NCBI GenBank assembly: GCA_003054665.1
Contig: QAYY01000001.1
Span: 733,501 to 797,500 of the forward strand
Origin: Opitutaceae bacterium EW11
Lineage (GTDB): Bacteria > Verrucomicrobiota > Verrucomicrobiia > Opitutales > Opitutaceae
DNA: 64,000 nt
Direction of reading: 5' to 3'
Under the pieces are notes generated by a model. It was given only the letters and a program-made list of their open reading frames with translations, was not told where the DNA came from and ran no database searches. The translations under genes were made by a program, and so were the position numbers. Below, one piece after another: positions 2,148 through 38,881 of this stretch; position 1 is the stretch's first letter; each line of letters begins with the position of its first letter.

Positions 2148-2747
2148 ATGTCTACCGTCTCCATCGTTTATTTCTCCGGTACCGGCACAACGCACCTCCT
2201 GGCCGAAGCGATCGCCCAGGGCGCGCGTTCAGTCGAAGGCACCGACGTTCAGCTCCTGCGCATCTCGCCCGAACAGTTCCAGGGCGGTCGCTGGTCGGAT
2301 GACGCCGTGCTGGCGAAGCTCGCCGAGTCGGACGCGATCGTCTTCGGCACACCCACATTCATGGGTGGCCCGGCGGCGCAGTTCAAAGCGTTCGCCGACG
2401 CGACCGGTGGCGTTTGGTACACCCAGGGCTGGCGCAACAAGCTCGCCGGCGGTTTCACGATCAGCGGCAGTCCGAGCGGCGACAAAGCCAGCACGCTCGC
2501 CTACCTCTCGATCCTCGCGGCGCAGCACGGCATGACCTGGGTGAACCTCGGCGTGTTGCCCGCCCTTGCGAGCGGCAGCCCCGTCGGAGAAAACCGGCTC
2601 GGGTCGTATGTCGGAGTCATGGCCCAAAACACCTCGGCGCCGAACAGCGCGCCGACGCTCCACCCAGGCGACGCGGTCACCGGAGAAAACTACGGACGTC
2701 GCATCGCCGAACTCGCGGCGCGCCTTGCCGCAGTTGAAACGGCCTGA
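2148..2747 (+). CDS. Flavodoxin-like NAD(P)H:quinone oxidoreductase (WrbA-like)
   Basis: A 199-residue protein of the flavodoxin/WrbA fold. The N-terminal strand and phosphate loop [18 protein letters not shown] bind FMN phosphate; [17 protein letters not shown] is the typical second FMN loop of WrbA proteins, and [13 protein letters not shown] follows the third strand. WrbA-type enzymes reduce quinones by two electrons and protect against oxidative or electrophile stress. The gene lies 85 bases after the TetR gene, has its own copy of the operator, and ends before a strong terminator, so it is the probable regulated target. It is shorter than some WrbA proteins by a few residues only. The exact substrate is not predictable. 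Confidence 0.85.
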
Positions 2748-2771
2748 TCCTTCCTTCGTTCGTGGAGATCG

Positions 2772-2800
2772 GCGGCGCCCCTGCGGGCGCCGCTTTTTTT
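2772..2800 (+). terminator. Rho-independent terminator after the flavodoxin gene
   Basis: A perfect 9-bp GC stem (GCGGCGCCC with GGGCGCCGC), a CTGC loop, and seven T residues directly after it. It closes the tetR-flavodoxin unit. Confidence 0.9.
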
Positions 2801-2893
2801 CGAGAGCTCGCCGACACGCTTCCGCGCTCCCCGCACAGTCGCCATTCCCGCCAGTCCCTTGACGCAACCCCGCCCTTGCCGTTCGTTCCACCC

Positions 2894-4342
2894 ATGGCCA
2901 ACGACGCTCCGATTCCCGTCACCGTTCTCACCGGCTTTCTTGGCGCCGGAAAGACGACGCTTCTCAATCGCATTCTGACCGAGCAGCACGGCCGGAAGCT
3001 CGCCGTGATTGAAAACGAATTCGGCGAGGTCGGCGTGGACAACCAGCTAGTCATCCAGAGCGAAGAAGAGCTTTTCGAGATGAACAACGGGTGCATCTGC
3101 TGCTCCGTGCGCGGCGATCTCATCCGCATCCTCGGCCGGTTGATGAAACGCAAGGACCGGCTCGACGGCATCCTGATCGAAACCACCGGTCTGGCCGATC
3201 CGGGGCCGGTCGCGCAGACGTTTTTCACCGACGACGAGATGCGGGCCCGTTTCCGCCTCGACGGCATCGTGACGGTGGTCGACACCAAACACATTCTCCA
3301 GCACATCGGCGACTCGCCCGAGGCGCAGAAGCAAATCGCGTTCGCCGACGTCCTCATCCTCAACAAGACGGACCTCGTCGCGACCGCCGAGATCGACCAG
3401 CTCGAAGCGCGTATTCGGAAGATGAATGCCGCCGCCAAGATTTACCGGACGCAGAATGCCGCGATCGAGTTGAACAAGGTGCTCGACGTCGGGGGCTTCA
3501 ATCTCTCCCGGGCCACGGAGATCAATCCCACGTTCCTCGAGCCGGAATACCCGTTCGAATGGGCCGGAATCTATCCGCTTCCCGCCGGCACGCACGAACT
3601 CGTGATCGGACACTGCGATCACGATCATGACCACGACCACGAACACGGCGGTCACGAACACCATCACGGCGAAGGCGAGCCCGGCGAACACGAGGCGCAC
3701 AACCACGAGCACCACCACCATCACGGGAATCCGGACGAGCTCGACGTCGTGGTCGTGCGGGTGAAGTCGCTCGAGGAAAAAGACACCTCGGCCGCGCGCG
3801 AAGCCGCCGTGGTGACGTTCTCCGACTGGGAGAATCGCGTCAAAGACGGCGACACCATCGTTCCGGGCGGCACGCTTCAGCGGCTGCTGCTCGAGAAAGG
3901 CCACGGGCACTACAAGCTCCAGATCCCCGAAGTCGGCCAATACATGGTATTCGAGGGATGCGGCGAGGACCCGCTCCACATCCATGTCGGCGGCGACGTC
4001 GTGAAACCCGTCTGGCAGCGCGACTACCAGCATCAGCATTCTCACGAGGACGAGGTGTCGTCCGTGGGCATCGTCGTCTCCGGCGATCTCGACGGCAAAC
4101 GCCTCAACGAGTGGATCAGCAATCTGCTCCGCACCAAGGGCGGCGACATCTACCGGATGAAGGGCGTGCTCAGCGTCAAGGGCAGCGCCAACCGCCTCGT
4201 TTTCCAGGGCGTGCACATGCTTTTCGACGCCAAGTTCGACCGCCCCTGGGGTTCCGACACCCGCACCAACACCCTCGTTTTCATCGGCAAAAAGCTCGAC
4301 CGCACCGCTCTGACCGAAGGCTTCAAGGCGTGTTTGGCGTAG
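2894..4342 (+). CDS. COG0523 (CobW/ZNG1-type) metallochaperone GTPase with His-rich stretch
   Basis: A 482-residue G3E-family GTPase thought to deliver zinc or a related metal to client proteins. The P-loop [12 protein letters not shown] lies near residue 15, [10 protein letters not shown] is switch [14 protein letters not shown] carries the conserved CxCC metal site, and NKTD gives guanine specificity. Residues about 236-280 are extremely rich in His, Asp and Glu, a metal-storage or donation tail common in zinc-linked members. A CobW C-terminal domain follows, with a second His cluster near residue 378. ATG 2894 was chosen because it starts 12 residues before the P-loop strand. It lies in its own unit downstream of the terminator at 2800. 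A second, His-poor paralogue is at 12615-13844. Confidence 0.9.
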
Positions 4343-4345
4343 CGG

Positions 4346-4366
4346 CCGGCGCGCACAGCGCGCCGG
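4346..4366. terminator. Hairpin directly after the COG0523 gene
   Basis: A perfect 9-bp stem, CCGGCGCGC with GCGCGCCGG, with loop ACA begins four bases after the stop codon. No T-run follows. It merges into the inverted-repeat element that starts at 4364, so it may belong to that element rather than act as a terminator. Confidence 0.4.
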
Positions 4367-4609
4367 AGAAGTTGGGAGTTGGAATTTCGAAGTTGGGTCT
4401 GCCCGTCTCCAATTCTCGAACACGCCGCCGACAGCTTCTCCCGCTCCGACCCTTCGTGAGACATGGGGTTTGAGAGTCTCACGAAGCAACGAAGCTCGCG
4501 AAGGTTTCAGGTCCAAACTACCAACTAGTTACTACAAACTACCCGTTCAGGCTCGGACTCCCGCCCCATCCAACTTCCAATTTCTAACTTCCAGATTCCA
4601 ACTTCTCCG
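4364..4609. repeat. Element with inverted ends and degenerate 7-bp-period repeats
   Basis: The 281-base gap before the WD40 gene is bounded by a perfect 12-bp inverted pair, CGGAGAAGTTGG (4364-4375) and CCAACTTCTCCG (4598-4609). Next to each end the sequence runs in degenerate heptamers: AGTTGGG-like units on the left, and AACTACC- then TTCCAAC-like units on the right (about 4515-4605). Inside is a second perfect 11-bp inverted pair, CTTCGTGAGAC (4452-4462) with GTCTCACGAAG (4476-4486). No gene is evident. It resembles a small non-coding hairpin element built from short tandem repeats, comparable in style to the heptanucleotide repeats known from cyanobacteria. Confidence 0.55.
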
Positions 4610-20930: not shown

Positions 20931-21950
20931 ATGAAGACATCCCCGCTCTCCCTCGACACCGTCCGGCAGGCGCGCCAGCGCATCGCCGATGGGCTGCGCG
21001 TCACGCCATGTGCGTATTCCGCCTCGCTCAGCCGGATCGCGGGCATGTCGCTGTATGTGAAGCGCGATTACGAGCAGGTGACCGGCAGCTTCAAGGAGCG
21101 CGGCGCCCGCAATGCGCTGCTCTGTCTTTCCCCTGAGGCCCGATCTCGCGGCGTCATCGCCGCGTCGGCCGGCAATCACGCGCTCGGGCTGGCCCGGCAT
21201 GGCGGGCTTCTGGGTGTGTCCGTCACCGTCGTCATGCCGCGCACGGCGCCGCACGTGAAAGCCGAGCGCTGTCGCGCCCTGGGTGCGACGGTCGTCCTGC
21301 ACGGCGAAACGTTCGACCAGGCCTCCGAATACTCTCGCACGCTCGCCGCGGAACGAGAGCTGACCTTTGTTCATCCGTTCGACGATCCGGCCGTGATCGC
21401 CGGCCAGGGCACGCTGGGGCTGGAAGTGGCTGAGCAGGTTGCGAACTTCGACGCGATCGTCGTGCCGGTCGGCGGAGGAGGGTTGATCGCAGGAGTAGCC
21501 ACGGCGCTGAAGGCCGTGCGCCCCGGCGTGGAAGTGATCGGCGTCGAACCCGCGCATGCGGCCTGTTTTGCGGTCGCGAAAGCCGCTGGGCGCCCCGTGC
21601 GGGTGCCCGTCTCGCCGACGCTCGCCGACGGACTGGCGGTTGCCGCCGCCGGGCAGGTCACGTTCGCCATCGCTTCGGCGCTCGCCGACCGTTTCGTGAC
21701 CGTCACCGAGGACGAACTCGCCACCGCGCTTTGGCAGCTGGCCGAGAGCGAAGGCAGCGTTGTCGAGGGAGCCGGCGCCGCCGCGCTGGCTGCATGCCTT
21801 TCCGGCAAGCTCTCGCACCTGCGAGGGAAACGCGTCGTTCTGCTCAGCGGCGGCCGCAATGTGGACCCCGAAGTCCATGCGCGAGCGCTCCGGCGGGCGC
21901 GGTCCAGCCGCGAACACGATCGCGAAACACGCCTGGCCTGCGCGGGCTGA
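20931..21950 (+). CDS. Threonine dehydratase (short form, no ACT domain)
   Basis: A 339-residue fold-type-II PLP enzyme that deaminates threonine to 2-oxobutyrate. TGSFKERGA holds the PLP lysine, ASAGNHALG the substrate loop, VGGGGLIAG the phosphate cradle, and LLSGGRN the end of the barrel. It lacks the C-terminal ACT-like regulatory domain of long IlvA, so it resembles TdcB or the short IlvA type and may not be feedback-inhibited by isoleucine. The start is only eight bases after the attenuator's T-run, but the N-terminal residues from 20931 match the family's first helix, so a later start is unlikely. Serine dehydration is also possible for this family. Confidence 0.88.
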   Translation: MKTSPLSLDTVRQARQRIADGLRVTPCAYSASLSRIAGMSLYVKRDYEQVTGSFKERGARNALLCLSPEARSRGVIAASAGNHALGLARHGGLLGVSVTVVMPRTAPHVKAERCRALGATVVLHGETFDQASEYSRTLAAERELTFVHPFDDPAVIAGQGTLGLEVAEQVANFDAIVVPVGGGGLIAGVATALKAVRPGVEVIGVEPAHAACFAVAKAAGRPVRVPVSPTLADGLAVAAAGQVTFAIASALADRFVTVTEDELATALWQLAESEGSVVEGAGAAALAACLSGKLSHLRGKRVVLLSGGRNVDPEVHARALRRARSSREHDRETRLACAG

Positions 21951-22037
21951 TCGCGAGCGCCGCGGACTAGATTCACCACGTTGGCCTGCGCGGCACTGCC
22001 CGCGGAGGTACTCCGGAGCATTTTCGAGGAGCGTTGT

Positions 22038-22061
22038 CGCGCCTCCATATCGAGAGGCGCG
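22038..22061. repeat. Hairpin in the gap before the protease gene
   Basis: CGCGCCTC and GAGGCGCG form a perfect 8-bp stem around an 8-nt loop. No T-run follows. The rest of the 297-base gap (21951-22247) shows no gene. It may end the threonine dehydratase transcript or be part of the protease leader. Confidence 0.35.
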
Positions 22062-22247
22062 TAGTCGCAATGTGGATGCGGCCGGTCGCCATTCATTGCG
22101 GACGCTCGGTGGCGCGTGCCGCTGTAACACGGGCCCTGTTCTTTTCTATCTTCAGGGTCGGCGGACAAACTCCGCCGGAAAGACCACTCACGCGGAGCCA
22201 GCGCCGCGGCGGTGAACGGAAAATCACCCTCAACTCACCCCCACCTC

Positions 22248-24095
22248 ATGAAAGCGCTGCCCGAAATCGTCAGCATCAAGGAAAAAGCCGAGCAGGAACT
22301 GCTCAAACGCCCCGGCGTGACCGGCGTCGACGTCGGATACAAGTACGTCGGCGGGAAACCCACGGACCAGATCGCGATCCGAGTCCACGTCAGCAAAAAG
22401 AAGCGAACCGTCGCCCAGAACGAAATGATTCCGGCGGAGATCGACGGCGTGCCCACCGACGTGATCGAGCGCACGTTCGAGCTCCACGCGTTCACTGCGC
22501 GGAAGAAAGAAGACGAGATCACGCTCATGGCGGACGCCACGAAGTATTCGACGCTCAAGGGCGGCATCAGCGTCGGTCCCTGCCGCTCGATCGGCGGCTA
22601 CGTCTACGTCGGCACCCTCGGCGCGATCGTGAAAGACAACGCGACGAGCCAGCCGATGATGTTGAGCAACTTCCACGTCATGTGCGTGGACACGGGCTGG
22701 CATGTCGGCGACACGATGGCCCAGCCGGGCCGGGTCGACGGAGGCAGCTGCCCCGCCGACGTGGTGGGCACGCTCCAGCGCTCCGCGTTGACGAGCAAGG
22801 TCGACGGCGCCGTCGCGCTCATCACTGCGCGCCCCCACGTCTGCGAGATCCAAGACATCGGCGCGGTCACCGGCACGACCACGGCGACGCTTGGCGCCGC
22901 CGTGCGCAAACGCGGACGGACCACCGGTCTCACCTACGGCGTCGTGGACTCGATCAGCCTGACGGTGAACGTCGACTATGGCGCCGGAATCGGCGTGAAA
23001 ACGCTCACGAACCAAATCGGTATCCGCGCCGACACGACGCACAATCCCAAGTTTGGCGATCACGGCGACTCCGGTTCCGTGGTGGTCGACTCCGGCGGCA
23101 AGGTGCTCGGTCTCTACTTCGCCGGCGATTCGAGCGGCTACGGAGTCGCGAACCAGATCTCCGAGGTCCTCAGCGCGCTCAATGTCACGCTCTGCACCGC
23201 TCCCACGAAATCGATCGTCAAGGATCTCCTCGATCACAAGCACCTGAAGAAGGAGGTGCACAAGGAGTTCATCAAGGAGCACAAGCTCGAGAAGCTCGAG
23301 GTGAAGGAGCACAGCAAGCCCGAGTTCGACGTGCCGAAGGTGTTCGAATTCCCCGGCCAGATCCCGCAGCTGCCCCAGACACCGAAGCTCCCCCAGGTGC
23401 CGCAAGCGCCCGCCGGCGCGGATACCGGCTCCACGGCCGCAGGCTCAACTCCGGGCGGCACCACGCCCGCGAAGAAGGTCGAGATCAAGGAACTCGTGAA
23501 GGAGAAAAACGAGATCAAGGAGTTCAAGCACGAGTGGAAGGAGAAGTTCGAGCTGAAGGACTTCAAGGACCACAAGCTCGAGAAGCTCGAACACAAGGAG
23601 CACGGCAAACCCGAGTACGACTTGCCGCAGAAACCGTTCGAGTATCCAGGAGTCCAGACGCCGGCCTCGCCGGTTCAGCAGACCGCGGCGTACGGCGCCG
23701 GCGCGCCCAAGATCACCGACGCGGGCAAGCTGACGGACTTCTCCTTCAAGCCGATCAAGGACTTCAAGGACCACAAACTCGAGTGGAAGGAGTTCAAGCA
23801 CGAGTCGAAGGAGATCAAGGAGGCGAAGGATCGGGTGGACATCCTCACCGTGCCGAACTGGCCGCCGATCCCTGACCCGGGGCCGCTCAATCCCGGGCTT
23901 CCGAACCTGGGGCAGTTGTCGCCTTTCATCTCGTCGGAGCTGAGGCCCGACCTCTCGGCCGGAGCGCTCCGGCAGGAGACAGACCTCCAGGGCACCGACT
24001 TCGCCGCGCTCAGCCAGCAGCTGCAGAAGGAAGCGGCCGACGCAATGCAGGCCAAAGTCGCGTTCGATAACGCACAGACCGGCTGCGGCTGCTGA
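22248..24095 (+). CDS. Trypsin-like serine protease with Lys/Glu-rich tail repeats
   Basis: A 615-residue protein without a signal peptide. Residues about 100-320 form a chymotrypsin-fold protease with an apparently complete triad: H143 (SNFHVM), D186 (VDGAVALI) and S275 (GDSGS). The N-terminal 90 residues include a conserved VDVGYKYVGG segment. The tail is unusual: three charged stretches (about 321-361, 409-455, 501-530) made of Lys/Glu/Asp/His, separated by Pro/Gly/Thr-rich linkers. Two share a near-identical unit, HKLEKLExKEHxKPE followed by D(V/L)P and FE(F/Y)PG. The protein ends in GCGC. GTG 22212 is an alternative start. Two ATP-grasp-fold genes follow on the same strand, which suggests that the tail could be a peptide-ligase substrate; that link is inference. 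Confidence 0.8.
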   Translation: MKALPEIVSIKEKAEQELLKRPGVTGVDVGYKYVGGKPTDQIAIRVHVSKKKRTVAQNEMIPAEIDGVPTDVIERTFELHAFTARKKEDEITLMADATKYSTLKGGISVGPCRSIGGYVYVGTLGAIVKDNATSQPMMLSNFHVMCVDTGWHVGDTMAQPGRVDGGSCPADVVGTLQRSALTSKVDGAVALITARPHVCEIQDIGAVTGTTTATLGAAVRKRGRTTGLTYGVVDSISLTVNVDYGAGIGVKTLTNQIGIRADTTHNPKFGDHGDSGSVVVDSGGKVLGLYFAGDSSGYGVANQISEVLSALNVTLCTAPTKSIVKDLLDHKHLKKEVHKEFIKEHKLEKLEVKEHSKPEFDVPKVFEFPGQIPQLPQTPKLPQVPQAPAGADTGSTAAGSTPGGTTPAKKVEIKELVKEKNEIKEFKHEWKEKFELKDFKDHKLEKLEHKEHGKPEYDLPQKPFEYPGVQTPASPVQQTAAYGAGAPKITDAGKLTDFSFKPIKDFKDHKLEWKEFKHESKEIKEAKDRVDILTVPNWPPIPDPGPLNPGLPNLGQLSPFISSELRPDLSAGALRQETDLQGTDFAALSQQLQKEAADAMQAKVAFDNAQTGCGC

Positions 24096-24116
24096 GTCAC
24101 GCGCCCAGGCGTTCGA

Positions 24117-24188
24117 CGGCAGGGTGGATTCGTACCCGTTCCGGTATCCGGCGATCGAAGACACCACAATTCGCCCGCCACCCTGCCG
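24117..24188. repeat. 11-bp inverted repeat between protease and ATP-grasp genes
   Basis: CGGCAGGGTGG (24117-24127) and CCACCCTGCCG (24178-24188) are perfect inverted copies 50 bases apart, starting 21 bases after the protease stop. No T-run follows. The structure could partly end the protease transcript or be a processing or stability element. Confidence 0.45.
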
Positions 24189-24263
24189 CTCGAGCCGCCT
24201 CCTCCGCGCCAATCTCAGTCCGCGCAACCCCTGAAGCGCTCGGCTCGCACGCCGGAGATTTCA

Positions 24264-24310
24264 CCTCCGACCTCCAGCATCCGCCTCCTGTCTCTGCCAC
24301 CTGCCCACTT
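24264..24310 (+). repeat. Degenerate 7-bp-period tract
   Basis: Directly before the ATP-grasp-like gene, pyrimidine-rich units recur with a period near seven: ACCTCCG, ACCTCCA, GCATCCG, CCTCCTG, TCTCTGC, CACCTGC. The style matches the tracts near 4.4-4.6 kb and 4.96 kb. The tract occupies the ribosome-binding region of the next gene. Confidence 0.45.
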
Positions 24311-24316
24311 TTCGCC

Positions 24317-25060
24317 ATGTTCCTCGTTCTCTGCAGTCCCCAAGATCTGTCCGCACTCTGGGCCCACGAACACCTGCGGACGCAAACCGGCTCCGATGTG
24401 CAGCTGGTCACGTCCGGTGTCCTCGCGGCCGCGCTGGGTTGGGATCACCGGCTCTCGCCCCGCGAGACGTCCCTCCGTATCCGCCTCGCGGATAAACGTG
24501 AAATCGACAGCGCGCGAATCGACGCCGTTCTGAACCGGCTAGTCGAGGCGCCCATCCCGCACTGGTCCGGCTCGATGGAAGAGGACCGCCTCTATGTGCA
24601 GCAGGAGATGACCGCGTTTTATCTGAGCTGGCTGCACGGTCTTCCCTGCCCCGTGTTCAATCCGCCGACGCCCCAGGGTCTCTGCGGTGCTTGGCGCCAG
24701 GAATCGGAGTGGGCGATGCTTGCGGGCGAGGCGGGGCTGCCGACGCCGGCCTACGAGCAGTCCACGCGGTCGCGCGACGACGATCCCGCGAGCACGCTCC
24801 GTCTGCGTGCACGCGGCGCCGCGGTGTACACCGCCATCGTCTTCCAGGGAACAGTCACGGGATTGAACCTCCCGCGGCCGCTTCAGCGCGCCTGCTGTGC
24901 GCTCGCGGAGCTCTGCTCCACGCCCCTTCTCGGCGTGGAGTTCACCGCCTCAGCCAATGGCGCGCTCCAGTTCGCCGGAGCCACGCCGATGCCCGACCTG
25001 CGCCTGGGAGGGCGGGGATTTCTCGAAATCCTCAAACGCGCGTTCGCTCGCGCCGCCTGA
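24317..25060 (+). CDS. Degenerate ATP-grasp-fold protein, partner of the next gene
   Basis: A 247-residue protein not matched to a named family. By eye it aligns with the downstream ligase in two places: VFNPPTPQGLCGAW near residue 113 against the ligase's VNRMSPMCSNSSKPYQ, and GVEFTASANGALQFAGATP near residue 206 against GIDLKITPEGETYCFEVNP. In the second, the metal-binding Glu and Asn of ATP-grasp enzymes (E-x-N) are replaced by A-G-A-T, and the central ATP-binding part is shortened. This suggests a catalytically inactive paralogue that binds substrate or the ligase. It is separated from the ligase by two bases and from the protease by 221 bases. Confidence 0.65.
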   Translation: MFLVLCSPQDLSALWAHEHLRTQTGSDVQLVTSGVLAAALGWDHRLSPRETSLRIRLADKREIDSARIDAVLNRLVEAPIPHWSGSMEEDRLYVQQEMTAFYLSWLHGLPCPVFNPPTPQGLCGAWRQESEWAMLAGEAGLPTPAYEQSTRSRDDDPASTLRLRARGAAVYTAIVFQGTVTGLNLPRPLQRACCALAELCSTPLLGVEFTASANGALQFAGATPMPDLRLGGRGFLEILKRAFARAA

Positions 25061-25062
25061 TC

Positions 25063-26028
25063 ATGATCCTGCTCTGCGGAATACCCACGGAGGGTCCTCT
25101 CGCCCTCGCCATCGCCGCCCTCGAGGAGATCGGCGCCGAGTTTCTCGTTTTCAACCAGCGGAAGTTCGCCTCGACCGAATTCAGCTTCCGCATCGTCGGC
25201 GGCGCGGTGTCGGGAGCGCTCGAATACGAAGGGCGCAGTTACCCGGCCGAAGCGTTCGACGGCGCCTACATCCGCTTCATGGATCACCGAATGCTCCCGG
25301 AACTCGCGAAGGAGAAACCCGGATCGGCCCTGCGGCGCCATGCCGACAACCTCCACGATGCGCTGACCCGCTGGCTGGAGATTGCCCCGCTCCGTGCGGT
25401 GAATCGGATGAGCCCCATGTGTTCGAATTCCTCGAAACCTTACCAGGCGCAGCTCATCCGCCGCTGCGGCCTCGGCATTCCGGACACCCTCATTTCGAGC
25501 GACCCCGCGTCGATTCGGGCGTTCAGCAGCGAACACGGGCGCGTGATCTACAAGTCGACCAGCGGCGTGCGCTCCGTGGTTCAGACGCTGGGCGACGCGG
25601 ACCTCGCCCGCCTGGAGCGCGTGCGCTGGTGCCCGACGCAATTTCAGCAGTACCTGCCGGGCACGGACATCCGCGTGCATGTCGTCGGCACGGAGGTCTT
25701 CGCCACGGCCATCGAATCGAGTGCCACGGACTATCGGTACGCGCAGGCGCAGGTGGGAAAGCCGGCCGAACTCAAACCCGTGGAACTCTCGGACGAGCTT
25801 TCCGGCACCTGCGTCCGGCTCGCCGCGGAGCTGGGGCTGGCCTTTGCGGGCATCGACCTCAAGATCACGCCCGAAGGCGAAACGTACTGCTTCGAGGTGA
25901 ACCCGTGTCCCGGATACAGCTACTACGAGAACAACACCGGCCAGCGAATCTCGCTCGCGCTCGCCCGATACCTCGCCGGCCAGCAGCGGAATGCCGCTGA
26001 ACGCACGGAGGAACTCGTCGGCCGCTGA
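25063..26028 (+). CDS. ATP-grasp ligase, RimK/graspetide-synthetase-like
   Basis: A 321-residue ATP-grasp enzyme. VIYKSTSGVRS (residues 161-171) supplies the ATP-binding lysine, QFQQYLPGTDIRVHVVG (193-209) the central strand, GIDLKI (263-268) and FEVNPCPGYS (277-286) the Mg2+ ligands. ATP-grasp ligases form amide or ester bonds by carboxyl phosphorylation; related ones add residues to protein tails (RimK) or cyclise Glu/Asp side chains in peptides (MvdC/MvdD). The start at 25063 follows the partner's stop by two bases, so both are surely co-translated. Together with the charged repeat tail of the upstream protease, this suggests a post-translational modification cassette. The substrate is unknown. 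Confidence 0.8.
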   Translation: MILLCGIPTEGPLALAIAALEEIGAEFLVFNQRKFASTEFSFRIVGGAVSGALEYEGRSYPAEAFDGAYIRFMDHRMLPELAKEKPGSALRRHADNLHDALTRWLEIAPLRAVNRMSPMCSNSSKPYQAQLIRRCGLGIPDTLISSDPASIRAFSSEHGRVIYKSTSGVRSVVQTLGDADLARLERVRWCPTQFQQYLPGTDIRVHVVGTEVFATAIESSATDYRYAQAQVGKPAELKPVELSDELSGTCVRLAAELGLAFAGIDLKITPEGETYCFEVNPCPGYSYYENNTGQRISLALARYLAGQQRNAAERTEELVGR

Positions 26029-26080
26029 TCCGCGGAGGCGAGCTGCCCTCGGCCCGCGTACAGCGCCGGGCCGTGGAAGT

Positions 26081-27010
26081 TCAGTCCTCGAGCCCGAAGA
26101 CCGCCTTCACGTAGTTGTCGATCGAGAACGGCTGGAGGTCTTCGGCCTGTTCGCCGAGCCCGAGGAAATAGATCGGAAGCTTCAACTGCCGGTAGATGCC
26201 GACCAGGGCTCCGCCGCGGCTCGTGCCGTCGAGCTTTGTGACCACGAGGCCGGTCAGTCCGAATTTCTCGTGAAACACTTTCGCCTGTTCGATCGAGTTC
26301 GAACCGAGGCTGCCGTCGACCACGAGCCAGCTGTGCTGAGGCGCCGAGGGGTCGTTCTTCTGCAGGACCCGGCGGATCTTCGCCAGCTCCTCGAGGAGAT
26401 TGCTCTTCGTGTGCAGGCGCCCCGCCGTATCGACGATCACGTAATCGCGGCCGCGGGATTTCGCGGCTTGCCACGCATCGAACGCCACTGCGGCGGCGTC
26501 CGCCCCCGTGTGGCTGGCGACGATTTCAAGGTCGAGCCGCTGCGCCCACGTCTTGAGCTGCTCCACCGCCGCAGCGCGAAAGGTGTCGCATGCGGCAAGC
26601 GTGACGGTCTTCCCATCTTCGCGAAGTTTCCAGGCGAGCTTGGCTGAGGTCGTCGTTTTGCCGGAACCGTTGACGCCGATCATGGCGATCACCACCGGAT
26701 TTCCCGCCGGGGTCGCGCCGCGGTCCAGCACGCCTTCCGAGCCGGCGAGCACGCGTTTGAGCACCGCCGCGCCGATTGCCGCGGCTTCCTGGCCGCGGAG
26801 CGTTTTGTCTTTGCGGTAGGCCGTCTTGATCTCCTCGAGGATCTCCTCGGTTGTCTCGACGCCGAAATCCGCCGTGTAGAGCGCCTCTTCCAGCGTGTCC
26901 AGCGACGAAGCGTCGATCGGCTTCTGCCCGAAAATCGCCGCCGTCTTCGAGGCGATCGCCGTGACCGTTTTAGCTAGGCCGTCTTTGAACTTTTTGAAGA
27001 GACCGAACAT
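26081..27010 (-). CDS. ftsY: Signal recognition particle receptor FtsY
   Basis: A 309-residue SRP GTPase that docks ribosome-nascent chain complexes at the membrane. The N domain is followed by GVNGSGKTTTSAKLA (G1), DTFRAAAVEQL, DTAGR (G3), TKLDGTSRGG (G4) and GLGEQAEDLQPF near the C terminus, which is the FtsY rather than Ffh version. The long acidic N-terminal extension of E. coli FtsY is missing; the protein starts with an amphipathic Lys/Phe-rich segment (MFGLFKKFKDGLAK) that could bind lipid directly. Confidence 0.96.
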   Translation of the reverse strand: MFGLFKKFKDGLAKTVTAIASKTAAIFGQKPIDASSLDTLEEALYTADFGVETTEEILEEIKTAYRKDKTLRGQEAAAIGAAVLKRVLAGSEGVLDRGATPAGNPVVIAMIGVNGSGKTTTSAKLAWKLREDGKTVTLAACDTFRAAAVEQLKTWAQRLDLEIVASHTGADAAAVAFDAWQAAKSRGRDYVIVDTAGRLHTKSNLLEELAKIRRVLQKNDPSAPQHSWLVVDGSLGSNSIEQAKVFHEKFGLTGLVVTKLDGTSRGGALVGIYRQLKLPIYFLGLGEQAEDLQPFSIDNYVKAVFGLED

Positions 27011-33815: not shown

Positions 33816-34586
33816 ATGCCGCAGGTACCCCACCGCCCTGAACGGACCCCGCCATCTCTCGATGAGGTGAAGATTGATCCCTTTTACGAAAAGGATCTCG
33901 AGCAGATGTCCAAAGCCAGAAACTACCTGGCATGGCAGTTCAAGCTCGTGGAGCCCTATGTGTTCGGAGACGTGCTCGAGGTGGGGGGTGGAATCGGCAA
34001 CTTTACGACTTGGCTTGCGAAGAGATCTCGCACCGTCGTGAGTATCGAACCCAACGCGTTCTGTTTTAGCAGACTCTCCCGTTCGGTGCAGGGAATCAGC
34101 AATGTCGAGGTGCACAGTTGTGTGGCTGAAGAACTGGAATCGAAACTGGGCAAAACCGTTCGCTTTGATGCGATCGTCTGCATGAATGTCATGGAACATA
34201 TCGCCGATGATCGAGCGCTCTGTCTGACGTTCAGCAGACTATTGAAGCATGGAGGCAACGCGGTAATCCAAGTACCCGCCCTCCCGTTTCTGTTCGGTCG
34301 GATCGATCAACTACTCGGCCATTATCGCAGATATACAAAATCTGCCGCCCGTGATCTTTTCACATCTTCGGGCCTGCAGCCGACGAGACTGCGTTACTTC
34401 AACTTTCCCGGAGTTTGGGCTTGGTGGTGGAACGCTCACGTAACGAAGTCGGTATCACAAAGCGACTTCCAGATTGGCGTTTTTGATCGCGGCATCGTGC
34501 CGTGGCTCGCCGCACTCGAGGCGGCCATCCCGCCGCCGATTGGGCAATGCCTCTTGGCTGTGGGTAGGAAAGCCACCGTGGCGTGA
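33816..34586 (+). CDS. Class I SAM-dependent methyltransferase
   Basis: A 256-residue methyltransferase. VLEVGGGIGNFTTWLA is motif I and MNVMEHIADDRALC the post-motif helix, of the Methyltransf_11/25 type often found in glycan loci. ATG 33816 is preferred; the frame extends to 33684, with a less protein-like leader. Base composition falls to near 50% GC here, unlike the surrounding genes. It is followed directly by a glycosyltransferase gene, so a glycan or polyprenyl-linked substrate is likely. Confidence 0.82.
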   Translation: MPQVPHRPERTPPSLDEVKIDPFYEKDLEQMSKARNYLAWQFKLVEPYVFGDVLEVGGGIGNFTTWLAKRSRTVVSIEPNAFCFSRLSRSVQGISNVEVHSCVAEELESKLGKTVRFDAIVCMNVMEHIADDRALCLTFSRLLKHGGNAVIQVPALPFLFGRIDQLLGHYRRYTKSAARDLFTSSGLQPTRLRYFNFPGVWAWWWNAHVTKSVSQSDFQIGVFDRGIVPWLAALEAAIPPPIGQCLLAVGRKATVA

Positions 34587-34591
34587 TCCAG

Positions 34592-35530
34592 ATGAACAAC
34601 ACACCTCCAAGTATCGCAGTCGCCATTCCCTGTTATCAGGAAGAACAAACGATCCAAAAAGTTGTTACTGATTTTCGGCGAGAGCTTCCACAGGCGAGGA
34701 TTATCGTTTTCGACAACAATTGCACAGACAGGACAGCGGAGATCGCACGATCAGCCGGAGCAGAAGTCGTCCGTGAAAAGCGCCAAGGAAAAGGCTACGT
34801 GGTTGCTACAATTTTCGCCACCGTAGATGTGGACATTCTGGTCTTGGTCGACGGCGACGACACTTACAGCGCAGTGGCCGTCCACGCCCTGATCGAACCG
34901 CTCCTGAAAGGCGACGCAGACTCGACTGTCGCTGCGCGGCTTTCCCTTTATGAAGGGAAAGCATTCCGCCGTTTTCATATCGTGGGCAATCAGACGATAT
35001 GCGGCGTCGTTAACTGGATATTCGGATGTCGTATCACAGATATCTTCTCCGGATATCGGGCATTCACTCGCGAAGCGATGCATGGGATACCTGTTACGGC
35101 AGCCGGCTTCGACGTGGAAACGGAGCTGACAATGCAGGCGTTGTACCGGGGTTTCGTTTTGAAAGAGATCGAAGCTCCCTATGGAGAGCGACCGAGCGGA
35201 AGCAGTTCCAAACTCAAGACCATTCCTGACGGCGTCCGCGTGCTTGTCCGGCTGGCAGCGATGTTCCGGACGTACAAGCCACTCACCTTCTTCGGCGGTG
35301 TAGCGCTCGTTTGCCTCTTCTTCGCTCTCGCGGCAGGCGCCCTTCCGATATTGGACTATATCCAGAACCAGTACGTCTATCACGTACCTTTGGCTCTCTT
35401 GGCCGCCGCTCTAGTCATCCTCTCATTTCTAAATGGAGCAGTTGGTATTATTCTCAGCTCGTTGAACCATCGTCTCCGTGAGCTTGAGCGGATCACCCTC
35501 GTTCAGGCAAAGAAGCGGCCGCCTAGCTAG
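34592..35530 (+). CDS. GT2 family glycosyltransferase with C-terminal membrane helices
   Basis: A 312-residue GT-A enzyme of the polyprenyl-phosphate sugar transferase type. AIPCYQEEQTI begins the fold, DNNCTDRT follows, LVDGDDTYS holds the DxD metal site, and DIFSGYRAFTRE the acceptor region. Two hydrophobic helices near residues 235-285 anchor it. GTG 34583 overlaps the methyltransferase stop and is an alternative start. It probably makes a lipid-linked sugar for a GT-C enzyme such as the convergent neighbour. Low GC as for the neighbour. Confidence 0.85.
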   Translation: MNNTPPSIAVAIPCYQEEQTIQKVVTDFRRELPQARIIVFDNNCTDRTAEIARSAGAEVVREKRQGKGYVVATIFATVDVDILVLVDGDDTYSAVAVHALIEPLLKGDADSTVAARLSLYEGKAFRRFHIVGNQTICGVVNWIFGCRITDIFSGYRAFTREAMHGIPVTAAGFDVETELTMQALYRGFVLKEIEAPYGERPSGSSSKLKTIPDGVRVLVRLAAMFRTYKPLTFFGGVALVCLFFALAAGALPILDYIQNQYVYHVPLALLAAALVILSFLNGAVGIILSSLNHRLRELERITLVQAKKRPPS

Positions 35531-37043
35531 AGACTGGTTTTGTATTGGCTCCTGCTGCTTGCGTACCAGTCGAGCCCGCGGGTTCTTGTTTCTGTTCTAG
35601 CGCTTTCGCGGGTAACTTCTTCCCGATCCAAGCCGAATAGAACTGCGAGAATTCCATCCCCTCCCATTCCGGCTTAACGGGATAGTACAGCAGCACGCGA
35701 TCACGCGAGGTCATTTTCTGAAACCAGGGAGCGTACGATTGCAGCAGTCCGTTGTTAAACTGGATCGCACGCATTACTGCTAGATCTTCGGGAGGCATCA
35801 ATCCTGGCTCGTAACCAGTCGAGAACCGAAAAGGGGCGTTCGGCATCCTGAAGAATATACGATAGAAGACTTGCATGTCTATGCAGTACAGAACTCCGTC
35901 TTTCTCGGGCAGTTTTCCCTCAAATTCCTCCAACGGGCGCGTGAGAAGTGGGCTCTTCAGGTTAGCAGTATAGCGCCCACTCGTGTCCGCACTTGCGCAG
36001 AAGAAAACAGCAACACTGACAAATCCCGTAATCGCCAGCCACTCGAAGTCGTTACGGAGTCGTTCCCATGAGAACTCACTTATCTGCCTGCAGAGCCACA
36101 CGGTAAAGGCAGGGACTGCCCAATCAGCGTAAAACCTCAGGATCTTCAATCCAAGCGTCCAGGTGATGAGGAAGAGTATAAAATCCACCCTGGTCACTTC
36201 ACGACGAATCGATCCACCGTTGAGATGCTTCCAGAGCAACATAAACCCCGTAATGATGAACGCAAACAGCGGCCCCCCCGAGGGCTGCAGTTCCGACACC
36301 AAGCTCGTTCCGACGATCGGGTCTCCACCGACTGCCATACGAAGAACGGCGACAGGATAAACTATAACGTCGTACCAAGATCCTGATGCAGCGCCAGCTC
36401 CCAACAGCCCGAGCAGAAGCATTGCCAAGAATTCCAGGAGGTATCGCCATTGTCGGCCTAGACCCAACGCGAATGCTACTAGCAGCCACAGGTACCAGCT
36501 GGAGGAGTGAACCCATATCGCGAACGCTAGTCCGACCGCTCCAGTCACTACCCGCAGCACTGCGCTTCCAGATCGCTCTCTAGACCAAACGAAAAGGAGC
36601 CCTACCAATACTGCCGAGGAGATTGCGAAGGGCCTCCCCAAGAAAAGTCTAAAATACAACTGATCGGTCAAAAAGACGACCAGGCAGGCAAACAACCAAG
36701 CGACTGGCCGACGGGAGGTAACAAGACCGGTCCAACAAAACGCCAGGAACGTAAAGCAGAACGACAAGACGACCAACCCCTCTACGTCGAGCCCGAGCCA
36801 CCGGTGCATTATCCTAAGAAACTGATGCCAACCAACGTGTACATCCACGCCCCAGGGAATCGCCGGATTCAGAAGAAGCACTTGGTCCCACGTCTTTCCG
36901 CTAACGGCGAATGCGCAATGGCGGAGCGCATCATCGGGGGGTAGATAGCCGTACCCAGCAACCTTCAACGCCACTGCGAGGAACGTCACCAGCGAGAGCA
37001 ACAGCACGGTTATTTTGCCGAAACTCGTGCTCGGGGTAATCAT
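35523..37043 (-). CDS. Polytopic membrane protein, GT-C-like
   Basis: A 506-residue protein with about ten transmembrane segments in residues 10-360 and a soluble C-terminal domain of about 140 residues. YLPPDDALRHCAF after the first helix recalls the acidic first-loop motif of GT-C glycosyltransferases. It overlaps the GT2 stop by eight bases in convergent orientation and lies downstream of the pilin gene on the same strand, separated by a terminator. Pilin or surface glycan transfer is a reasonable guess, not shown. Composition is lower in GC than average. Confidence 0.65.
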   Translation of the reverse strand: MITPSTSFGKITVLLLSLVTFLAVALKVAGYGYLPPDDALRHCAFAVSGKTWDQVLLLNPAIPWGVDVHVGWHQFLRIMHRWLGLDVEGLVVLSFCFTFLAFCWTGLVTSRRPVAWLFACLVVFLTDQLYFRLFLGRPFAISSAVLVGLLFVWSRERSGSAVLRVVTGAVGLAFAIWVHSSSWYLWLLVAFALGLGRQWRYLLEFLAMLLLGLLGAGAASGSWYDVIVYPVAVLRMAVGGDPIVGTSLVSELQPSGGPLFAFIITGFMLLWKHLNGGSIRREVTRVDFILFLITWTLGLKILRFYADWAVPAFTVWLCRQISEFSWERLRNDFEWLAITGFVSVAVFFCASADTSGRYTANLKSPLLTRPLEEFEGKLPEKDGVLYCIDMQVFYRIFFRMPNAPFRFSTGYEPGLMPPEDLAVMRAIQFNNGLLQSYAPWFQKMTSRDRVLLYYPVKPEWEGMEFSQFYSAWIGKKLPAKALEQKQEPAGSTGTQAAGANTKPVSS

Positions 37044-37108
37044 GGGGAGAGGCGATCCTCCGTGGAGAGAGAAGTCAATTCGGTTGCTCACCGACGTACG
37101 ATAACAAA

Positions 37109-37134
37109 AAGGTCGCACCGAAAGGTGCGACCTT
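37109..37134 (-). terminator. Rho-independent terminator after the pilin gene
   Basis: A perfect 11-bp stem AAGGTCGCACC/GGTGCGACCTT with a 4-nt loop lies 33 bases after the pilin stop. On the minus strand it is followed by a TTTTTG tail. It makes the pilin mRNA monocistronic. Confidence 0.85.
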
Positions 37135-37166
37135 GAGATCTCAAGTGGAGCTAACTAACGCTTGCG

Positions 37167-37619
37167 TTAGAGAACCTTGCCTTCGGTATCGAAGTTGACG
37201 GCACCGCCCACTGCGTTGCTCGTGCCGCCGACGTCCACGCCTGCAATCTGCGGATGCGACAAGGCGAAAGCGGTCGAGCCAGTGTTCGCCACTACATTAT
37301 AGGTAATAGTGTTGCTGGTATATCCTTTGCTGATCTTCTGCAGATATTGCTCAACGATGTTGTTAGTGCTCGTAATCGCACCCGTCGTCGAAGTGTAGGT
37401 GATCGATATCGAATTTCCGACCGACGGGTTCTCGAGGACCACCTGCTGGCAGGCGCCGGCGATCTGGCGGGCGTCGTTAGCCATAGCTTTGCCGATGGAG
37501 TTCTTGCGAACCTTCTGGAAGGCGGGGATGGCCATCGCGGCGAGGAGGCCGATGATGACGACCACGATCATGATTTCGACAAGGGTGAAGCCCTTGGTGG
37601 AACGTGTATTCAGTTTCAT
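37167..37619 (-). CDS. Type IV pilin-like protein
   Basis: A 150-residue prepilin. The leader MKLNTRSTKG is followed by FTLVEIMIVVVIIGLLAAMA, the methylated hydrophobic helix with the conserved Glu5. The C-terminal part is Thr/Ser/Asn-rich with no disulfide cysteine pair. It could be the major pilin or a type II secretion pseudopilin; the single-gene unit with a strong terminator suggests an abundant product. ATG 37619 gives the standard short leader peptide. Confidence 0.88.
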   Translation of the reverse strand: MKLNTRSTKGFTLVEIMIVVVIIGLLAAMAIPAFQKVRKNSIGKAMANDARQIAGACQQVVLENPSVGNSISITYTSTTGAITSTNNIVEQYLQKISKGYTSNTITYNVVANTGSTAFALSHPQIAGVDVGGTSNAVGGAVNFDTEGKVL

Positions 37620-37831
37620 AGGATGATTGGATGACGGATGATATATATGAAAGCTCCCACCAGAATCGGGGTAGCTGTGAACCGTAATCATCGCCTGTTT
37701 CGCGAGCCTCTCAAGTGGCAAAGGGTCAACGAACTGTGAAAAGCAAACCGATAGATTCTAGTTCTGAGGAACATCCCCCAGAAAATCAGGGTTGAACGTC
37801 CTTAGAAACGTAACCTGAAGTGAATGAAGCC

Positions 37832-38881
37832 ATGGCCGCGCATGAATCGAAAATCCGCTCAATCCGTCGAAACCCTCTCACCCGAATGCGCGCTCTGGCA
37901 GCCGTTTGTGCAGCGTTCTGGATTACAAACGCGGGGTTTTCGGCAGTTGAACTCCATCTGCGCAATGGCGATCGCATCACGGGCCAGCTGATCGGACGCT
38001 CCGACGGGAAGCTGATCTTCCTCTCGCCCTTCCTCGGCCAAATCGCCGTACCTGAGGATCAGGCGGTCGTCGTGGACGCCCCAGATACGCCCGTGGAAAG
38101 CCTCGCAGGGATCCCGCCCGCTTCGAGCACGCTGCCGCGAGCGAACGCCCCCGCCCACGGCATGAGCGGCGCGCCTCCGAAAAAACCGTGGCAGGGCAAG
38201 GTCGAGTTCGGCTTCCTCCAGCAGACTGGCCGCACGGATACAGCCCAGGTTTCCTTGCGCGCCGATGCGGAACGCACGCTCGGCAAAAATAACTACCGGT
38301 TCGAGGGCCGCGCGCTCTACAGCGAGCAATATCAGCAGACGACGTCCGACCGCTACGACGCCCTGCTCCGGTGGCGCCATGAACTCTCCGGTCGCGTGTT
38401 CAGCCAGGCCCAGAGCAGCTACACCAAGGACCGGGTGAAGCAGATCTCCAACAATTTCGAAGAAAACGTCGGCGTCGGCTACAAGCTCCTCCAGCGGCCA
38501 CGCCATACGGCCAGCATCGGTGCGGGTGTCACCGGTCAATACCGCGATGCGACCGGCGTGGAATCGGGCACCGCCTTCCTTGGGGAGGTTTTCCAGGACT
38601 ACTCCTACAAGCTCACCGGCAGGCTCACAATTCTCCAGGACTCCAACGTCTCTTACGCTCCGACCGCGCGCAATCGCTACGCGTACACAGGGTCCAACTA
38701 CATTCCAACCGACGGCACGGCCACGAACTACCGACTGCGCTTCAACTCCGCCCTGCAAGGCAAGGTCACCGAGCGCGTGTCGCTGAATCTGCGTTTCGAA
38801 TACGAATTCGATAACGCGATTCTCGATCCGAAGGCCAAGGTCGATCAGCGCGTCACCACGTCGATCGGCTACGGGTTTTAG
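37832..38881 (+). CDS. DUF481-like outer membrane beta-barrel protein
   Basis: A 349-residue protein with a signal-type helix (LAAVCAAFWITNAGFSAVE), an N-terminal beta unit resembling the Sm-like module seen in such proteins (LHLRNGDRITGQLIG), and a C-terminal barrel of amphipathic strands ending in SIGYGF, typical for BamA recognition and for DUF481 proteins. ATG 37886 would place the signal peptide at the very start; GTG 37820 is a third option. Function unknown. Confidence 0.75.
   Translation: MAAHESKIRSIRRNPLTRMRALAAVCAAFWITNAGFSAVELHLRNGDRITGQLIGRSDGKLIFLSPFLGQIAVPEDQAVVVDAPDTPVESLAGIPPASSTLPRANAPAHGMSGAPPKKPWQGKVEFGFLQQTGRTDTAQVSLRADAERTLGKNNYRFEGRALYSEQYQQTTSDRYDALLRWRHELSGRVFSQAQSSYTKDRVKQISNNFEENVGVGYKLLQRPRHTASIGAGVTGQYRDATGVESGTAFLGEVFQDYSYKLTGRLTILQDSNVSYAPTARNRYAYTGSNYIPTDGTATNYRLRFNSALQGKVTERVSLNLRFEYEFDNAILDPKAKVDQRVTTSIGYGF

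Follow-up and report, generated by a model that had tools for sequence, protein, structure and literature searches.

What links a protease with a long charged tail to the two ATP-grasp proteins encoded beside it? In Opitutaceae bacterium EW11, three such genes lie together on the + strand at 22248-26028 of a 64,000-nucleotide stretch of contig QAYY01000001.1, referred to here as the window. The first encodes a trypsin-fold protein, termed the carrier. The second and third encode a degenerate and an intact ATP-grasp protein, termed AG1 and AG2. A preliminary description had noted the three same-strand genes and proposed that the protease could be the substrate of the ATP-grasp pair, the maturation protease, or both. 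The role of substrate is now the best reading, because unrelated carriers share a K/E-rich tail and a C-terminal tag. This conserved tag, which the preliminary description had missed, is the most telling element of the locus. We consider it rather probable that the three genes form a graspetide-like protein-maturation unit, in which the tag serves AG2 and its partner AG1 as a docking site, and the tail of a folded protein receives isopeptide bonds between Lys and Asp/Glu from AG2.

The gene-neighbourhood check proposed in the preliminary description revealed a recurring cassette. A scan for AG2 in a collection of named genomes gave 23 confirmed loci, and AG1 was directly upstream of AG2 in all 23. 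The hosts included Cyanobacteria, myxobacteria, Nitrospira, Actinobacteria, metagenome-assembled genomes (MAGs) of Methylocystis and Xanthobacteraceae, a Ktedonobacteraceae MAG, a WOR-3 MAG and an archaeal MAG. The AG2 clade analysed below comprises 37 loci (the window, the 23 named loci and 13 further loci, with three duplicates and seven loci of a sister clade left out), and was supported at 82/84 in the AG2 tree. When open reading frames (ORFs) shared among 33 loci were grouped, AG2 was found in 33/33 and AG1 in 32/33; AG1 of the remaining locus (L036) was found by profile. AG2 and AG1 were the only real genes common to most loci among the 14 largest groups listed. The other large groups were rejected as additional cassette genes: they were reverse-strand or alternative-frame shadows, lineage-specific neighbours, carriers joined via their tails or Ig-like repeats (L004 was joined with DUF6519 carriers in this way), or an ABC-type group in six loci.

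Carriers with unrelated N-termini ended alike, in a K/E/D-rich stretch followed by a tag of consensus FIxxxxRP. The tag, C-terminal to the K[ED]-rich stretch, mostly read FIxxxERPxVG or FIxxELRPDL; across 28 aligned tags, Ile and Arg never varied, and Phe and Pro were conserved in at least 90%. A tagged carrier was present in 33 of the 37 loci, giving 34 carriers in all, since L052 encodes two in tandem (a subtilase and a lectin-like protein). In these 33 loci the tag stands beside a residue-rich core in a gene adjacent to the ATP-grasp pair, an arrangement that suggests a role in recognition.

To assess the tag independently of carrier homology, a hidden Markov model (HMM) of the tag was trained without the carrier's own family, and its matches were ranked against all ORFs of at least 60 amino acids in the locus. 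In a first run L043, which proved to be an S1 carrier, was treated as its own family, and L019 and L052a were split; in the repeat run the families were corrected, all five S1 carriers were held out, and L004 was placed with the DUF6519 carriers. In the first run the held-out HMM put the true carrier first in 31 of 34 cases; the L052 pair ranked behind each other, and L022 ranked third. In the repeat run the window carrier came out on top of the 71 ORFs in the segment (E 7.7e-5; next ORF, E 25).

The tag was also specific at the genome level. The window tag scored E 3.1e-12 against the whole genome with a profile that includes it, and no other match was found in that genome at E <= 1. Eighteen AG2-bearing whole genomes contained 20 tag matches at E <= 1e-5, all within ~2 kb of AG2. 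No unlinked tag was found in these genomes at E < 0.1, the next best match having E 0.12 (best 150 candidates scored in four of the genomes). Since 18 of the 20 matches are themselves rows of the profile, what is informative is that no others appeared. Among 245 Nitrospirota genomes, tags at E < 1e-6 occurred in 7, all of them among the 12 with an AG2-type match; the other five AG2-type-positive genomes contained only sister-clade ligases. At E <= 0.1, 27 of the 245 had a tag match (at most 25 candidates scored per genome); beyond the 7 and two PqqD matches, these were weak and scattered.

Tag identity tracked AG2 identity across 504 pairs of carriers from different families (r 0.52; 0 of 2000 permutations as high), and the correlation was 0.50 over 259 pairs after close relatives were thinned. 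One AG2 clade has 10 carriers, of which all but L022 and L024 bear tags of the [L/Q]RPDL type (8 of 10); ERP was found in all 24 others. The subtilase carriers L052a and L019 each bore the tag type of their own AG2 clade. In the genomes searched, the tag is confined to the neighbourhood of AG2, and its sequence covaries with that of AG2.

A sister clade of AG2 provided a second setting of the motif. In its loci (L045, L046, L047, L049, L051, L053 and L038), a full-length second ATP-grasp takes the place of AG1; the grouping is weakly supported (85/37). The carrier-tag profile was searched against the 669 ORFs of these seven loci, and the top seven matches were one ORF per locus (E 1.9e-5 to 0.029; next, 0.33). 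The ORF directly downstream of the sister-clade ligase starts with the motif, e.g. MGRQPFITADLRPD, followed by a PqqD domain (4/4 tested). The two marginal tag matches from the Nitrospirota search (E 0.002 and 0.01) lay directly beside AG2-type ligases of this clade. Because FIxxxxRP occurs at the N-terminus of a PqqD helper and at the C-termini of many cargo proteins, always beside the same ligase lineage, we read it as a ligase docking site; to judge from these sequences, the tag is probably the docking site for AG2/AG1. By eye, the Nitrospira sister loci contain a short ORF of ~41-49 amino acids near the PqqD protein, which may be the actual peptide precursor, and several sister-clade loci have ABC-transporter-like and transglutaminase-like neighbours.

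The sister clade also bears on whether the tag is only a tether between the carrier and the ATP-grasp pair, with a plain charged spacer in the K/E tract and the real substrate elsewhere (e.g. a peptide made by the carrier enzyme). In favour of this, the sister-clade motif is on a PqqD-type helper and not on the presumed precursor, and the K/E tracts differ in length and order. However, some carriers (L003, L005, L039 and L040) are little more than K/E or K/D repeats and make sense only if the tract matters, and no other shared substrate is evident, AG2 and AG1 alone being common to most loci among the 14 groups. A tether without modification of the tract is therefore unlikely in our view.

Sequence and structure placed AG2 close to graspetide synthetases. 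The E-x-N metal-binding ligands were kept in 24/24 aligned AG2 proteins and absent from 24/24 aligned AG1 family members, which bears out for both families what the preliminary description had seen in the window. The predicted AG2 model had a pLDDT (predicted local distance difference test) score of 91.6, and the best matches by both sequence and structure were PsnB, CdnC, MdnC and PruB; the fold was closer to the MdnB/MdnC/PsnB/CdnC group than to RimK. The best NCBIfam matches were to graspetide-type maturases, all far below their cut-offs. AG1 had no match in Pfam or NCBIfam at E <= 1. Its model (pLDDT 89.6) matched the PDB graspetide synthetases PsnB (7drp), PruB (9bou) and MdnC (5ig9), the same structures that AG2 matched strongly; structure prediction of each protein alone had been suggested in the preliminary description. 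When the secondary structures of the two models were compared, the N-terminal fold was still present in AG1, but nothing corresponded to the ATP-clamping lobe (AG2 residues ~142-196). AG1 may be a pseudoenzyme partner that occupies the second place of a dimer and helps bind the tag.

RimK is an ATP-grasp ligase that acts on a protein tail, to which it adds Glu residues. AG2 could act likewise, docking on the tag and ligating free amino acids, or a small amine or peptide, onto tail Glu/Asp or the C-terminus. In Pfam, AG2 does match the RimK domain at 33.6 bits; structures of RimK are also among the matches of its model, and the tail is rich in acidic residues. Nevertheless, RimK was the closest match in neither the sequence nor the fold searches: graspetide synthetases outmatched it by sequence (E 5e-39 to 2e-25, vs 6e-11 at best for RimK) and by fold (E 1e-24 vs 5e-17 at best), and the cores are built of K[ED] units, not of Glu alone. 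We consider RimK-like ligation improbable.

The cores of 26 non-redundant carriers contained 34% Lys, 20% Glu and 16% Asp, shares that arise partly by construction, core limits having been set by K/E/D content. Neither the low Ser+Thr content (4%) nor the order of residues was built in by this delimitation. In 21 cores, K followed by E/D was observed 264 times vs 122 expected. K[ED]x(1-2)K[ED] units numbered 184 vs 30.9 +/- 5.6 in shuffles. At least one such unit was present in 21 of the 26 non-redundant carriers, and two were present in the window. The low Ser+Thr content and the K[ED] order suit Lys-Asp/Glu amide chemistry and argue against esters. Because the signal for K to E/D at +4, the helix-staple spacing, was weak (z 4.2) beside that at +1 (z 18.9), no crosslink geometry is claimed. 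L039 and L040, found in the myxobacterial/Hyalangium phylum search, have a core of ~70 residues that is a near-perfect KDx repeat. These two, L003 and L005 are candidates for the simplest natural substrates.

The crosslinks might instead form between molecules, AG2 joining tails to each other or to a surface polymer to give a covalent assembly or anchor. ThfB, a characterised graspetide synthetase, is described as able to crosslink assembled protein chains (PMC12291112), a coiled-coil-like segment precedes the tag in some carriers (by eye), and four loci have common neighbours that include baseplate-type genes. Many tails, however, have no obvious oligomerisation segment, and we regard intermolecular crosslinking as quite unlikely.

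The N-terminal domains of the carriers were diverse. A Pfam scan of 20 carriers revealed, above cut-off, NAL1, trypsin, subtilase, peptidase C13, peptidase M6, DUF676, Kelch, DUF6519, S-layer and NBR1-type Ig domains. A B-lectin match in L052b was below cut-off, and six of the 20 (L003, L005, L007, L009, L012 and L039) had no Pfam match; by eye only, L006 is tyrosinase-like and L007 glycosidase-like. As read, the carriers are 169-910 amino acids long, usually with an N-terminal domain, a K/E tract and the C-terminal motif in that order. The L007 carrier lies downstream of AG2. The same Amycolatopsis locus has a very long stop-to-stop frame of 2161 amino acids (L007:10078-16563), which shares sequence with the last part of the tagged carrier and extends beyond it on the downstream side.

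With the window included, a peptidase-family match was found in 8 of the 21 carriers scanned and in none of the other 13 (the window's own match is below cut-off), and maturation protease is therefore not supported as the general role of the carrier. The same diversity bears on an earlier view of such loci. Makarova et al. (2022; PMC8939145) describe a branch 8 of ATP-grasp enzymes, also present in cyanobacteria, in which a truncated inactive ATP-grasp stands beside an active one and peptidases of unrelated families; they predict no precursor for branches 7 and 8 and see the peptidases as peptide suppliers. Our loci have this combination, and by that description the window looks like a member of branch 8. 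The combination, which the preliminary description did not recognise as a described system, was thus partly known; the shared tag adds to it, and we found no description of a shared C-terminal tag on these proteins in the part of the open PubMed Central literature covered. That the peptidases cut other cellular proteins and so supply peptides to the ATP-grasp enzymes would agree with the S1, S8, M6 and C13 carriers and with the intact triad in the window. It would leave DUF6519, Kelch, esterase-like, S-layer/Ig and bare-repeat carriers, which share tail and tag, unaccounted for, and we consider it very unlikely. Instead, the neighbouring "peptidases", together with other neighbours, look like substrates that carry a K/E tail and tag, a reading of their sequences that is new here.

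By eye, no obvious N-terminal signal peptide was seen in the carriers from their likely start codons (a contig end truncates L004 and L021), although the longest L005 frame starts hydrophobic. Several of the carrier domain types are usually extracellular; an unusual route of export or display is therefore possible.

In the window carrier, residues 1 to ~318 resemble NAL1-type trypsin-fold proteins. Pfam matches of this domain were below cut-off, whereas those of the L022 homologue, which shares 43% identity with it over 321 amino acids (E 2e-60), were above. H143, D186 and S275, counted from ATG 22248 as in the preliminary description, sit in the expected motifs, and the triad is intact. The lysine-, glutamate- and aspartate-rich C-terminal half was likewise confirmed: 42 Lys, 29 Glu and 19 Asp were counted in the tail (residues 319-615), three HKLE motifs start at residues 345, 442 and 509, and the reported unit HKLEKLExKEHxKPE is present in two near-identical copies and one divergent copy. 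No second NAL1-like protease was found in the window's own genome at E <= 0.001. The Arthrobacter locus L022 has a second NAL1-like ORF (L022:12129-13847, - strand; 152 amino acids aligned with the protease domain of the window carrier at 30% identity), in which the pattern scan listed no tag.

The proposed mechanism has three steps. First, the C-terminal tag FIxxxxRP would dock the carrier on the AG2/AG1 complex, a step well supported by the sequence evidence. Second, to judge from its homology, AG2 would spend ATP on activating the Asp and Glu side chains of the K[ED]-rich stretch that precedes the tag. Third, as the composition suggests, Lys side chains would capture the activated carboxyls, and the resulting isopeptide (lactam) crosslinks, several per tail, would stiffen the stalk covalently. 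The N-terminal domain would be interchangeable cargo, in the window a trypsin-fold protease with an intact triad.

Several observations weigh against crosslinking of tagged tails. L022 ranked only third with the held-out HMM; the M6 carriers L048 and L056 ranked first without a significant E; and with the bare 13-residue tag L022 fell to rank 13 and L024 to rank 48. L024 has RR instead of RP, the L037 tag is degenerate, and L023 has the motif at the start of its AG1 frame, on the N-terminal side. In L035 and L042 no tag was found, and AG1 was matched only in part. The cores differ greatly from one another: no K[ED]x(1-2)K[ED] unit is present in 5 of the 26 non-redundant carriers, and the K/E stretch of L011, L016 and L019 is only 9-12 residues long. 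K/E-rich tracts are common low-complexity linkers, and the K/E/D share of the cores is in part a product of how they were delimited. AG2 is far under the cut-off of every NCBIfam graspetide maturase model that it matched (e.g. 118 vs 350 bits). Finally, the leaders of described graspetides are N-terminal, as far as PMC13003496 covers them.

Comparison with known systems shows where the cassette departs from them. AG2 resembles PsnB (7drm), PruB (9bou), MdnC (5ig9) and CdnC (7mgv) in fold and in the E-x-N ligands, and these were its closest sequence and structure matches; RimK is less like it in both sequence and fold. Those enzymes act on small precursors with N-terminal leaders (in part after PMC13003496), whereas here the motif is C-terminal on a large protein and the enzyme has a pseudoenzyme partner. 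The carriers do not have the form of a small precursor with an N-terminal leader followed by a core. The fuscimiditide synthetase ThfB was described in 2026 as working with its leader moved to the C-terminus, in an engineered construct (PMC13003496); the C-terminal arrangement here appears natural. Corallotide, with a large repeat precursor and Lys isopeptide links, and rosaritide, with its dependence on a partner protein, are similar in these respects (PMC13097080). As presented there, the rosaritide partner is peptidyl-prolyl isomerase (PPIase)/SurA-like, whereas the partner here is a pseudo-ATP-grasp, and the precursor is not described as a tail on an enzyme. The same 2026 survey mentions a graspetide group with diverse neighbouring proteases, for which it suggests roles in maturation or resistance (PMC13097080). 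The enzyme is close to graspetide synthetases, and the arrangement of its substrate lies outside the usual definition of a graspetide.

AG2 is rare and patchy, as few genomes were positive in whole-genome profile searches across phyla (E <= 1e-60, a threshold that also admits the sister clade; centre genomes counted). Matches were found in 5/339 cyanobacterial, 5/195 myxobacterial, 3/396 actinobacterial and 12/245 Nitrospirota genomes, and in 1/387 genomes of the window's own phylum, that one being its own. A search of 57 relatives found a close copy in no genome but the window's own; 7 others carry remote ATP-grasps (E 9e-22 or weaker). Plasmids gave no AG2 match at E <= 1e-40, and five proteins tested with PADLOC for anti-phage defence gave no match. 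In the AG2 tree, the window grouped with L002 (S1) and L052 (S8, lectin-like) at 97/96. In one clade (82/93), carriers of the S1, M6, C13 and S8 families were interspersed, and those of the S8 family were present in the other clade too; exchange of cargo therefore appears to have happened.

L012, L017, L018 and L020 have cassette neighbours in common (e.g. L018:55-2565 and 2565-4559; L012:2-1243). They include proteins with Baseplate_J domains in L012 and L018 and, in L017, a Tail_P2_I match below cut-off. L017 has a DUF6519 protein as its tagged carrier, of which L018 and L020 encode homologues, and the tagged carrier of L012 is unmatched. These neighbours hint that the subset is tied to contractile-injection-type or tail-like particles.

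The features of the window locus are listed in Table 1. The carrier ORF has 615 amino acids from ATG 22248, with an alternative start at GTG 22212, and is separated from AG1 by 221 nucleotides. No promoter-like site and no + strand terminator-like site were found at 21900-26200. Elsewhere in the window, GC content drops to 0.54 at 34001-38000 (0.62-0.69 in the rest). This stretch holds a family 2 glycosyltransferase (34583-35530) and a 531-amino-acid ORF (35523-37118, - strand) without a Pfam match above cut-off; it is possibly a recently acquired island.

Table 1. Positions of the carrier, AG1 and AG2 and their parts in the window
Feature	Position	Strand	Basis
Carrier, from NAL1-like trypsin-fold (S1) domain through K/E-rich tail to C-terminal tag and the segment after it	22248..24095	+	
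NAL1-like trypsin-fold domain, triad H143/D186/S275	22248..23201	+	Pfam above cut-off in L022 homologue
K/E-rich tail block 1, proposed modification site	23220..23324	+	composition
K/E-rich tail block 2, proposed modification site	23472..23615	+	composition
K/E-rich tail block 3, proposed modification site	23748..23831	+	composition
C-terminal tag PFISSELRPDLSA, proposed AG2/AG1 docking site	23922..23960	+	held-out tag HMM
Post-tag segment, related to those of L002, L043, L052a/b and partly L048/L056	23961..24092	+	
AG1: degenerate ATP-grasp without ATP-clamping lobe or E-x-N metal ligands	24317..25060	+	
AG2: intact graspetide-synthetase-like ATP-grasp ligase	25063..26028	+	

More tentatively, the cassette may represent a widespread but rare maturation system that had gone unrecognised, in which one ATP-grasp/pseudo-ATP-grasp pair introduces multiple isopeptide crosslinks into K[ED]-rich stalks, the folded hydrolases or binding proteins that bear them being interchangeable. 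Its motif, shared with the PqqD helper of the sister clade, would have been passed to the C-terminus of the cargo, and the stalk would display, anchor or deliver proteins that have no ordinary signal peptide. If crosslinking of tagged tails is correct, an ATP-grasp branch whose loci had no predictable substrates would gain them, and graspetide-type chemistry would extend from small peptides to the tails of folded proteins. The tag would be a natural case of C-terminal recognition, the published case that we found being engineered, and would offer a short portable element for crosslinking protein tails. These findings suggest that chemical modification in bacteria extends to the tails of whole enzymes.

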